A DNA stretch of 64,000 nt, from contig JAILKS010000066.1 of the NCBI GenBank assembly GCA_024693715.1, forward strand, positions 1 through 64,000, read 5' to 3'. A program made the position numbers and the translations under genes. Source of the DNA: Treponema sp. GTDB lineage: Bacteria > Spirochaetota > Spirochaetia > Treponematales > Treponemataceae. Positions 31,982 through 35,064 of this stretch are shown here, one piece after another. Numbering within the stretch: the stretch's first letter is position 1; the number at the start of each line of letters is the position of its first letter. The notes beneath the pieces were generated by a model. The model saw only the letters and a list, made by a program, of their open reading frames with translations, was not told where the DNA came from and made no database searches.

Positions 31982-32809
31982 TTATTTTTCACTGTTATTT
32001 ATAGATTCAATCCATTTTTGCATTAAGATGCCAAATGCTACTCCGACATTTAAAGATGCTTTTAATCCTTTCATGGGTATTGTAACAGTCCCATAGGTTG
32101 CCGCTTTTAATGCCTGAGGGCTGACCCCCAATTCTTCAGAGCCGATAATGCAGATTCCTTCCTTTGGAAAAACAAAATCATTAATATCAGTTCCGCCTGT
32201 TTCAAGTGCAAAAACCGGAAGAGATTTAGGCAGATTATCAAGAGAGAGTCGTTCATATCCCATCGTTTCTATGCACCCCATCCCGCTTCTTACAGCACGA
32301 GGTTGTTCAGGATCTACGCAAAAAGGTGAAATATATACTTTATCGGCCCCCAATCCTTCTGCTGTTCTGAAAATTGAGCCAAGATTGAACGGAGAGCGTA
32401 TATCCTCTGCATAAACACATACGCCCTTGTAATAATTTCGTTCGAGGACTGTCCCTTTTGTTGCATCCTGATTATGTGGTGCAATAATAAGATCCCATTC
32501 GGCAGGAAATGTACCGATTATTCTTAAAAGATGATTTCTGGCAGTGTTACATAGCCTCAATTCATCAAGTGGTTTTTCATCAAGGAGTGTCTGAATTTCA
32601 TTTTTTGCAGCATCATCAATTTTTGGATCTTTTAAAAGAACTTTGCAGATTTTGATTATATATTCGGGTCTTGGCATTTCTTTAAAGGAATATTCCATGC
32701 CTTTTTCTGCAATTCCTTTTATGTCACGTTCAAGTGCACCGAATGTAAGGGCGAGTTTGCGTCTTTGATGGCCGCTTTCCAGTTGGAAGAGTTTTCCAGG
32801 TTCTATCAT
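31982..32809 (-). CDS. TrmH/SpoU-family RNA 2'-O-methyltransferase
   Basis: The 275-residue protein has an N-terminal helical domain and a C-terminal SPOUT knot: VYAEDIRSPFNLGSIFRTAEGLGADKVY, ICIIGSEELGVSPQAL and TIPMKGLKASLNVGVAFGILM are its three SAM/RNA motifs with the catalytic Arg and Asn. It methylates a ribose 2'-OH in tRNA or rRNA; the site is not known. Its ATG lies three bases after the stop of the preceding gene with no separate ribosome-binding site, suggesting coupling. Confidence 0.88.
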   Translation of the reverse strand: MIEPGKLFQLESGHQRRKLALTFGALERDIKGIAEKGMEYSFKEMPRPEYIIKICKVLLKDPKIDDAAKNEIQTLLDEKPLDELRLCNTARNHLLRIIGTFPAEWDLIIAPHNQDATKGTVLERNYYKGVCVYAEDIRSPFNLGSIFRTAEGLGADKVYISPFCVDPEQPRAVRSGMGCIETMGYERLSLDNLPKSLPVFALETGGTDINDFVFPKEGICIIGSEELGVSPQALKAATYGTVTIPMKGLKASLNVGVAFGILMQKWIESINNSEK

Positions 32810-32812
32810 TTA

Positions 32813-33961
32813 TTAGAAGGCCTGTTTTATAAAGTCAAAAATATCATCGGTAGTCATGCTTCGAGGCAGTTTATTTATAACATCTATGTCTGCAACATCT
32901 TCTACTGCAAGAGAAAGCTTTTCGATTGTAAGCTGTAAATCCTTTAAACGTGCCGGAAGATTTGCCTTTGCAATTTTCTGACGTACAAAATCAATGTATG
33001 CTTTTACCGCATCTTCACCGGTAGTTTCTTCTTCTGCTATACCCATTATATGTGCAAGCTTTTCAATTCGTTTGCTTTTGAATTTAGCAGCATCTTCTAC
33101 CGCATAAGGCATCAAAATTGAAGAAATCAGGGATTTATTTACTCTGTAGCGTGAATTTATAGTTAAAGCAAGAACAGAACTTAATCCCAGGGAGCTTGCC
33201 GCTGTAGCAAGAGATATCATTACACCAGCCTGTGCCAGAAGAATCTCCTGAGGTGTTGTTATTTCGAGGGATGGAGAGCCGTTTACCGCATATGAAAGCA
33301 GCTGCAAGCCTTTTTCAACGAACATATCGCTGAAAAAGTTGGCTTTTTGAGACAGATATGCTTCTGTCGCCATATTCATTATTTCTATTGTTAATGTAGA
33401 TTTCTGATTTTCAGTAAGGGTCAGCATTAAATTCGGATCAATAAGAACAAGCTTTGTAACATTATTCTGTATTTTAATCACTTTAATCTGATTGTTTCTT
33501 GAATCTTTTAAAGGAACGTCATTTGTAAATACAAAAGGAGTTCTGAAAAGGGTTGGAACACATATACAAGGAATTGGATTTGTAGATGGAACTGCGCCGT
33601 CTAAAAATGTATAAAGATCATGAACTTCGTTGTAGAAAGATGCTACAATTCGTCCGATGTTTATCGCTTTTGCACCGCCGACTGCTATAACACCGTGAAT
33701 ATGTCCCTGTTTTGCAAGAGATAAAGCTCTTTGTGCTATTTTTGATGTATTTCCGTCAGAGAGTTCATTGAAAACAAAATTTTCAATTTTTCTGTCATTT
33801 AAAGACTGAACAACTTTTTCCTGTACTTTCATTTCAGTTAAAATCGGATCCATGATTACAATAAATCGTGTTCCCCATTCTAAGGCCTGTTGACCGAGTC
33901 TTGAAAGTGTGTATGAACCTAAAACAATATTTGGTGTAATTCTAAAAATAAAATCTGACAT
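32813..33961 (-). CDS. Iron-containing alcohol dehydrogenase homologue lacking the metal ligands
   Basis: The 382-residue protein aligns over its whole length with Fe-ADHs (NIVLGSYTLSRLG, PCICVPTL, TEAYLSQKANFFSDMF, ALTINSRYRVNKSLISSILMPY). The usual metal residues are replaced: by register with D..xH in DALTHAIEAY, positions are Glu193 and Met197; with HxxxH and PHG they are Ile268 and Asn275. The GGGS nucleotide loop is GGAK (95-98). It is therefore probably not an ordinary alcohol dehydrogenase. GGAG precedes the start. It lies in a run with FlgM, RsmI and a methyltransferase. Confidence 0.8.
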   Translation of the reverse strand: MSDFIFRITPNIVLGSYTLSRLGQQALEWGTRFIVIMDPILTEMKVQEKVVQSLNDRKIENFVFNELSDGNTSKIAQRALSLAKQGHIHGVIAVGGAKAINIGRIVASFYNEVHDLYTFLDGAVPSTNPIPCICVPTLFRTPFVFTNDVPLKDSRNNQIKVIKIQNNVTKLVLIDPNLMLTLTENQKSTLTIEIMNMATEAYLSQKANFFSDMFVEKGLQLLSYAVNGSPSLEITTPQEILLAQAGVMISLATAASSLGLSSVLALTINSRYRVNKSLISSILMPYAVEDAAKFKSKRIEKLAHIMGIAEEETTGEDAVKAYIDFVRQKIAKANLPARLKDLQLTIEKLSLAVEDVADIDVINKLPRSMTTDDIFDFIKQAF

Positions 33962-33981: not shown

Positions 33982-34010
33982 AAAAAAAAAGACGGAAAAC
34001 CATTTCCGCC
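33982..34010 (-). terminator. Intrinsic terminator of flgM
   Basis: On the minus strand GGCGGAAA pairs with TTTCCGTC (one G-U) across a four-base loop, followed by nine T. It ends the rsmI-flgM unit and separates it from the ADH-like gene. Confidence 0.85.
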
Positions 34011-34047
34011 TTTTCGAGTAATTTAGCTGTTCTGCAAACTCAAATAA

Positions 34048-34335
34048 TTACAGACCGATACTAGTCATAAATTTTTCAGCGGCAGACTGTATTACAGCAT
34101 TGCTCAAGTAAGAAGGATCTTTAATTTTAGCCTTTACTTCTGCAATTTTGTCTGCACGAACATTTGGAGTTTCAGCAGCTACCTTTTCAAGGTAGTATGC
34201 CTCTGCTTTTTCTACAGCTTCATCTGAAAGGTGAATTGAATCAACTCCAGGGCTTACTTTAGCAGAGTTCTCTGTTTTACGAATGTTTGATACATTGTTA
34301 AGAGGATTAATTCCACCAAGTTTTTCTATCATCAT
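34048..34335 (-). CDS. flgM: Anti-sigma-28 factor FlgM
   Basis: The 95-residue protein fits FlgM: a disordered N-terminal half, then VDSIHLSDEAVEKAEAYYLE, VRADKIAEVKAKIKDPSYL and a C-terminal helix that binds FliA. It holds back late flagellar transcription until it is exported through the completed hook. Two ATGs in tandem follow AGGA; the second (34332) is equally possible. The gene lies directly after rsmI, six bases away, and ends at a strong terminator. Confidence 0.85.
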   Translation of the reverse strand: MMIEKLGGINPLNNVSNIRKTENSAKVSPGVDSIHLSDEAVEKAEAYYLEKVAAETPNVRADKIAEVKAKIKDPSYLSNAVIQSAAEKFMTSIGL

Positions 34336-34341
34336 AACGTC

Positions 34342-35064
34342 CTACCCCTCTACCTTTATATTATCGGTAGATTTTTTAGAAAGTTGAGCTTTTTTTATGC
34401 CGGAAATGAACAATGCAAACTCACCTTTTACCGAAGCTCGACTTGCATAGTCCTTAAGTAGTTCTTCTGCGCTGCCACATGAAACCTCCTCATGAAGCTT
34501 TGTCAGTTCTCTTCCAACTACTATCCGCCTTGTACTATCTATATCGGAAATATCTTTTAAAAGTTTAGTAATTCTGAACGGAGATTCGTAAATAATTATT
34601 GCATCTCCTGTTGACATCAATTCTTTTAATCTTGAACGCCTTTTTCCAGGTTTTGGTGATAAAAAACCTTCAAAAATGAGTGTTTTTCCACCAGAGCCTG
34701 CCACACTTATTAATGTAGCAAAGGCAGATGCCCCCGGAATAGGTACAACCTTGTGTCCTGCCTCTCTTACAACATCAACAAGAACTGCTCCCGGATCACT
34801 TATTCCCGGAGTTCCTGCGTCACTTGCATATGCAACAGAGAAACCTTTGTCCAAAAGCTGGACTATCTTTTCTCCTGCAAACTGTTCGTTCTGAGAACGA
34901 CAGGAAATCAACTGCTTTTTAATCTCAAAATGATTAAGAAGCTGTAAAGTATGGCGGGTATCTTCAGCGGCAATATAATCAACACTTTTTAAGGTTTCAA
35001 TTGCCCGATAAGTTATATCCCCAAGGTTTCCTATAGGTGTTCCTACAATATATAGTACAGACAC
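34342..35064 (-). CDS. rsmI: 16S rRNA (cytidine-1402-2'-O)-methyltransferase RsmI
   Basis: The 240-residue tetrapyrrole-methylase-fold enzyme methylates C1402 of 16S rRNA in the P site. Motifs: LYIVGTPIGNLGDITYRA, AAEDTRHTLQLLNHF, SDAGTPGISDPGAVLV, PIPGASAFATLISVAGSG and EGFLSPKPGKRRSRL. The start is GTG at 35062-35064. A reverse-strand TATAAT (35071-35076) ends six bases before it and no Shine-Dalgarno exists, so the message should be leaderless with GTG. Confidence 0.95.
   Translation of the reverse strand: MSVLYIVGTPIGNLGDITYRAIETLKSVDYIAAEDTRHTLQLLNHFEIKKQLISCRSQNEQFAGEKIVQLLDKGFSVAYASDAGTPGISDPGAVLVDVVREAGHKVVPIPGASAFATLISVAGSGGKTLIFEGFLSPKPGKRRSRLKELMSTGDAIIIYESPFRITKLLKDISDIDSTRRIVVGRELTKLHEEVSCGSAEELLKDYASRASVKGEFALFISGIKKAQLSKKSTDNIKVEG

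Follow-up and report, generated by a model that had tools for sequence, protein, structure and literature searches.

A spirochaete homologue of the Fe-dependent alcohol dehydrogenases without metal ligands, encoded behind flgM

The window considered here, a stretch of 64,000 nucleotides of Treponema sp. DNA, codes for a homologue of the Fe-dependent alcohol dehydrogenases (Fe-ADHs) that an earlier sequence-only reading described as having lost all four metal ligands, and for which it proposed a pseudoenzyme with a new, perhaps regulatory, role. This raises the questions of whether the ligands are indeed lost, how widely such a loss is shared, and what a protein of this kind might do next to a gene for an anti-sigma factor. 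The gene, for which we use the name pADH as that of the ligandless Fe-ADH homologue, lies at 32813-33961 on the minus strand and is intact as described, with an ATG start and a complete open reading frame of 382 codons. The proposed run with FlgM, RsmI and a methyltransferase is also present, and consists of four genes, all on the minus strand: an rsmI-type methyltransferase of the tetrapyrrole-methylase family upstream (34342-35064, minus strand; recognized by its open reading frame and Pfam), flgM for the anti-sigma-28 factor (34048-34335, minus strand), pADH itself, and a SpoU-family rRNA methyltransferase downstream (31982-32809, minus strand). The FlgM protein was recognized both by Pfam (32 bits, cut-off 25) and by an FlgM profile of relatives.

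The fold and the lost metal and dinucleotide sites

Both halves of the Fe-ADH superfamily are detected in pADH above the Pfam gathering scores (Fe-ADH, 77.1 bits, cut-off 31.3; ADH_Fe_C, 56.7 bits, cut-off 27), together forming the two-domain fold of the superfamily. An AlphaFold2 model based on a 71-row alignment has a mean pLDDT of 92.4 and a pTM of 0.90, and Foldseek matches this model over its whole length to FucO and methanol dehydrogenase (TM 0.88-0.90), while VIA-align superimposes 375 residues on 8zwd (Z 46.8, rmsd 2.6); the Fe-ADH fold and length first suggested by the sequence are thereby confirmed. The best PDB sequence matches are FucO and the Bacillus methanolicus methanol dehydrogenases, group III Fe-ADHs that resemble pADH in their whole fold (VIA-align Z 46-47, 374-376 residues, rmsd 2.4-2.6), but share only 16-18% identity with it and possess the four metal ligands, the catalytic His and the GGGS/GTGSE motifs that it lacks. 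pADH falls far under the cut-offs of the FucO equivalogs (NF007911, 105.4 versus 537; TIGR02638, 101.6 versus 523). Its second-best NCBIfam match is ErcA of Pseudomonas (NF041833, 104.4 bits versus a cut-off of 550), another Fe-ADH homologue that is regulatory by its NCBIfam name and that, according to one report, acts together with a hybrid histidine kinase in alcohol metabolism (PMC12997753). The maleylacetate reductases, i.e. PcpE and its relatives, belong to the same superfamily (3w5s aligns at Z 38.6); a PcpE study indicates that they keep a His-rich LHHKLCHTLGG stretch, where pADH has no His, and its mutagenesis stresses Lys and His over the metal (PMC5741723).

To identify the ligand columns, FucO of E. 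coli K-12 was used as the ruler (382-residue numbering; ligands D195, H199, H262 and H276). In a MAFFT alignment these columns contain E193, M197, S262 and K276 of pADH, and the column of the catalytic His (H266 of FucO) contains L266; a phmmer alignment with the PDB FucO sequence yields the same ligand columns. The Asp-His-His-His metal site of functional Fe-ADHs is therefore absent, and all four ligands are lost as claimed: Glu193 and Met197 had been placed correctly, whereas Ile268 and Asn275 came from wrong columns, the correct residues being Ser262 and Lys276. The replacement of GGGS by GGAK also holds, at G95-G96-A97-K98, and where functional Fe-ADHs show the GGGSxxD and GTGSE-type NAD motifs, pADH has GGAKAIN and, at the second motif, RTPFVFT. 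As controls, the two other Fe-ADHs of this genome with the highest scores (L131 and L132) were read, and both have D-H-H-H and GGGS intact. The only histidines of pADH are at positions 87, 89, 114 and 304; as the segment 185-285 contains no His, it is unlikely that His ligands have merely been displaced. An ordinary metalloenzyme, with ligands elsewhere or with its alignment wrong, might be argued from the full-length Fe-ADH fold, but given the lack of His in this segment, the agreement of both alignments on the columns and the complete ligand sets of the same-genome paralogues, we regard it as extremely improbable. It is nearly certain that pADH is a non-enzyme as far as Fe-ADH chemistry is concerned.

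Phyletic spread, selection and residues kept instead

At a threshold of E 0.001, matches to pADH are present in 113 of the 118 genomes of the genus, a count to which a few genomes contribute through ordinary Fe-ADHs alone, and they extend throughout the family. Among 98 distinct orthologues from the order, the metal columns are lost in all, with three of the four ligands gone in 97 and two in the remaining one. The columns are populated in a regular manner: that of D195 contains E in 55 and D in 29, that of H199 retains His in only 1 of 98, that of H262 has S or T in 92 of 98, and that of H276 has K or R in 89 of 98, while E202 is kept in all 98. Elsewhere in the phylum, 35 of the 38 best-hit loci that were fetched are ligandless (L166-L200), with at most one ligand each, and L203-L205 are ordinary. 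As these ordinary Fe-ADHs (186-188 bits) scored as high as ligandless ones in the phylum search with profile A1, 39 doubtful genomes were re-read with the help of a broader profile, A2. The 30 doubtful loci that were re-read comprise 15 ligandless and 14 ordinary genes and one, L211, that is unreadable at the ligand columns. Four further ligandless genes, each behind flgM, were found in families f6 and f8 (L236-L239).

Of the aligned sequences, 196 have a residue in each of the four columns; 109 of them keep no ligand, 43 keep 1, 1 keeps 2, 4 keep 3 and 39 keep all 4. This distribution is bimodal and separates two kinds of protein. A quick IQ-TREE analysis of 41 ligandless and 36 ordinary rows, the latter being near neighbors of the pADH family, FucO and two paralogues, splits them by a single branch with an SH-aLRT of 99; one ligandless row, L238, forms a long branch. 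Taken together, the bimodal counts and the single supported branch suggest that the loss of the ligands was old and happened once, as far as this sample goes, and the alignment of spirochaete homologues reveals that it has been kept across a phylum-wide lineage.

The gene is under very strong purifying selection and displays no decay. Compared to its 99%-identical orthologue in the nearest relative (L047), pADH shows 134 synonymous and 8 nonsynonymous differences (dN/dS 0.011), and 64 pairs with 80-98% identity give a median dN/dS of 0.052 and a maximum of 0.098. As the ligand loss is common to relatives across the phylum and coincides with strong purifying selection, it is not a product of chance. 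The loss of catalytic residues under sustained purifying selection, with the metal ligands and the GGGS/GTGSE motifs gone phylum-wide and the fold kept, supports the proposed pseudoenzyme as far as sequences can indicate.

Residues of the NAD phosphate loop and the second motif that do not vary in ordinary Fe-ADHs (G97, S98, D101, K161 and the GTGSE stretch) have not been conserved across 59 diverse ligandless rows. Those largely kept are G95 (58/59) and G96 (53/59), D177 (D175 in the window) and an acidic residue, D or E, in the column of FucO D38 (45/59), which lies at the end of strand 2 and which we take to be the adenosine-ribose contact. The old pocket contains no set of residues common to the whole ligandless lineage, its patterns varying by clade, and this absence of a phylum-shared set speaks against one new chemistry. 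Residues typical of the lineage were also found, namely R338 (48/59 ligandless versus 3/43 ordinary rows), R327 (49/59 versus 10/43), L339 (58/59 versus 17/43), E289 (47/59 versus 14/43) and S204 (52/59 versus 18/43). Most of them are situated in the C-terminal helical half of the protein, and they might form a surface for a partner.

Gene neighborhood, transcription signals and flagella

Contextual information places pADH next to flgM over much of the phylum. In nearly all 12-kb loci examined in the order, rsmI, flgM, pADH and the SpoU methyltransferase gene are consecutive, and the order rsmI-flgM-pADH recurs in other families of the phylum. Among the matches listed, 116 genomes have a place for both flgM and pADH, and in 95 of these pADH follows flgM on the same strand at a distance of no more than 400 nt, with the ligands read for the fetched loci only. 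In the other 21, flgM adjacency is absent; one of them (G480) has a listed match starting inside the gene. The genes are apart in clades f1 g15, f22, f27, f37 and f44 and in parts of f42. Examples of loci with pADH moved off flgM are L107 and L141 (G132), L187-L190 (f22), L197 (f27), L193 (f37) and L207-L214 (f42), and in f42 the ligandless gene is found beside a gene with GidB and SpoU domains. Several flagellated genomes have no pADH but keep flgM, with the rsmI-flgM-spoU run closed up (L138, L140, L142, L143 and L241); since pADH is lost cleanly in flagellated genomes that keep flgM, it is dispensable. Pfam PF04316 alone missed FlgM in several genomes (9/14), and an initial assignment of 'no FlgM' by PF04316 was discarded because a spirochaete FlgM profile recovered FlgM in the 1.1-Mb genome G137. 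At this locus (L243), rsmI-flgM is present without the ligandless gene, and the FlgM lies below the reach of Pfam, being visible only with the spirochaete profile.

Upstream of flgM in the window, 25 nt before its ATG and inside the 3' end of rsmI, is a sigma-28-type promoter-like site, TCAA-N15-ACCGATAA (34361-34387, minus strand). It has 2 mismatches to TAAA-N14..16-GCCGATAA, which we take to be the sigma-28 consensus and used for scoring. In the 90 nt preceding flgM, 55 of 73 loci carry a site of this type with at most 2 mismatches, its distance from the ATG being nearly constant and usually 18-31 nt, as against 0.96 in shuffles, 1 on the opposite strand and 1 in the stretch 500 nt further up among 69-73 control regions. 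A count over 250 nt was rejected in favor of the 90-nt count, as it was inflated by a coding motif of RsmI (KLLxDIADI-type). These promoter patterns make it probable that flgM belongs to the sigma-28 genes throughout the phylum. A sigma-70 scan of the region, which returned 13 sites versus 11.0 in shuffles, was disregarded. Sigma-28-type sites before pADH where it stands away from flgM were also considered and set aside: 5 of 24 such genes have one at up to 2 mismatches versus 0.94 in shuffles, but so do 3 of 23 ordinary Fe-ADHs.

Between flgM and pADH in the window lies a terminator- or attenuator-like hairpin (AAGGCGGAAA / TTTCCGTCTT) with a run of 9 T (33982-34015, minus strand), and the 86-nt gap as a whole folds at -20.8 kcal/mol (z -2.29). 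A hairpin and T-run in this gap are seen in 57 of 75 loci, and most of the others have a gap of at most 25 nt. Under a strict rule, 37 hairpin sites fall in the gap, 30 of them with a CGGA/TCCG core that is conserved in relatives (alignment of 43), and 20 sites, only 1 with this core, fall outside the gap in the same 75 loci. A consensus terminator scan of the region did not list the hairpin, and a search of the flgM gap with Rfam gave only a chance-level MicC match (25.2 bits versus a gathering score of 90). pADH would thus be reached either by read-through from flgM or by a promoter of its own, to judge from these signals. The CGGA/TCCG hairpin persists between families in which the identity of the proteins is down to about a quarter, and the 64-kb window has just one other strict terminator-like site.

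The phyletic pattern of pADH was also compared to that of flagella. In a sample of 96 genomes of the order, FliG is present in 81, and pADH, scored at E < 1e-27, is found in 71 of these 81 and in none of the 15 FliG-less genomes; as all 15 belong to family f3, they may represent few loss events. In a phylum sample of 247 genomes scored for FliG, FlgM and A2, FliG is present throughout family f7 (16 genomes), but A2 has no match there and none of these genomes is among the FlgM matches listed. Family f13 (5 genomes) lacks both FliG and FlgM; A2 matches were read in three of its genomes and proved to be ordinary Fe-ADHs. FliG is also missing from six more genomes, whose completeness is 54-88%, and at least one of them (G351, 88%) carries the ligandless gene.

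Possible roles of the ligandless protein

The known FlgM/FliA (sigma-28) system controls late flagellar genes, and over most of the phylum pADH stands behind flgM and a sigma-28-type promoter. The best overall reading, which we hold with about as much doubt as conviction, is that a dead dehydrogenase was recruited to the FlgM/sigma-28 control of late flagellar genes. Some role of pADH in flagellar gene control seems on balance probable, and FlgM or FliA is put forward tentatively as its direct partner, a partnership suggested by gene order, promoter and occurrence. The earlier proposal of a new, perhaps regulatory, role in the flgM run has become much likelier through the flgM adjacency, the sigma-28-type promoter and the co-absence with flagella, though the role itself is one that we infer. 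Under the recruitment reading, the metal and dinucleotide-phosphate motifs of an Fe-ADH fold would have disappeared in an early spirochaete, and the fold would have been retained for another task. pADH would be transcribed from the flgM promoter by read-through past the hairpin, late in flagellar assembly, and because such read-through must pass the hairpin, it would be made in less than equal amount to FlgM. It might then bind its partner, most likely FlgM or FliA, through the C-terminal helical half (R327, R338, L339, E289), and by holding or protecting FlgM or FliA tune the switch to the flagellin genes. Several observations stand against this reading: pADH is off flgM in several clades, where sigma-28-like sites are hardly above controls; some flagellated genomes have flgM but no pADH; and the hairpin between the two genes would lower co-transcription. 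Furthermore, a model of an FlgM-linker-pADH fusion (24 paired rows, with no control run; pTM 0.71) showed no docking, with low confidence for FlgM (N-terminal part below 50, helices about 60 to 82).

According to a review, the FlgM of T. denticola stabilizes FliA, and deletion of flgM lowers flagellin expression (PMC12655853). This unusual behavior leaves room for an extra component, and a partner able to turn FlgM from a blocker into a guardian of FliA would agree with these data. A bolder version of the recruitment reading would make pADH a spirochaete-wide component of the FlgM/sigma-28 checkpoint, which would bind FlgM or FliA, be produced from the flgM transcript through regulated read-through at the conserved hairpin, and explain why the FlgM of spirochaetes can stabilize FliA and support flagellin expression rather than merely block FliA; we consider this rather unlikely. 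In the presumed T. denticola clade, pADH is located away from flgM, which counts against such a partner of FlgM there. The T. denticola flagellin-regulation study identifies TDE0201 as FlgM and, in its accessible part, mentions no dehydrogenase (PMC9481697).

Among the rival explanations, pADH might be a metal-independent enzyme whose new pocket residues make or modify a small molecule, perhaps one linked to flagella as in flagellin modification. The domain-interface fold is predicted at high model confidence, the regularity of the ligand columns in Treponematales (E/D in 84, S/T in 92 and K/R in 89 of 98) could reflect a new site or a salt bridge, and the maleylacetate reductase of the same superfamily is reported to depend on a His and a Lys (PMC5741723). 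However, one chemistry should leave an invariant set of residues, and other clades have LFMK-, SLRI-, AYLF- and YAM-type residues instead; nor does the lineage keep GGGS with the Asp three residues further on, the GTGSE loop or the invariant Lys161 of ordinary Fe-ADHs, making such an enzyme unlikely. A sensor that binds NAD(H) or a related nucleotide without catalysis, and thereby couples the redox or energy state to FlgM/sigma-28, would be consistent with the retained acidic residue at the D38 column (45/59) and the glycines G95 (58/59) and G96 (53/59), and has a precedent in ErcA of Pseudomonas as an Fe-ADH homologue that plays a regulatory part (PMC12997753). Yet an acidic residue and a GG pair are common in any Rossmann-like domain, and neither the remainder of the phosphate loop (GGGS changed to GGxK/R and others) nor the second NAD motif has survived, so that a sensor too has a low probability.

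Alternatively, pADH could be an unrelated housekeeping protein that is kept behind flgM by gene-order inertia, the rsmI-flgM-spoU run being old and mixed. This would agree with its neighbors rsmI and spoU being translation genes, with its position elsewhere in several clades and with its loss in flagellated lineages, but the non-flagellated lineages (15 f3 and 5 f13 genomes) are without the ligandless form, and the f7 genomes without FlgM are also without pADH. Even though both of these absences could stem from few events, we consider a mere bystander quite improbable.

A search of open-licence PMC papers retrieved no report on pADH or on a phylum-wide ligandless branch tied to flgM, and the FlgM/FliA system has no known FlgM partner of the ADH fold. 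Regulatory use of an Fe-ADH homologue has a precedent in name, ErcA. Thousands of genes of the pADH type are likely to be annotated as alcohol or lactaldehyde dehydrogenases, and so to enter metabolic models without a site for the chemistry. If the flagellar link is true, pADH would represent an unstudied phylum-wide factor in the regulation of periplasmic flagella beside FlgM, and may bear on the unusual behavior of FlgM in T. denticola. The flagellated genomes that have closed up the rsmI-flgM-spoU run (L138, L140, L142, L143 and L241) constitute natural deletions of pADH, usable for comparing flagellar traits.
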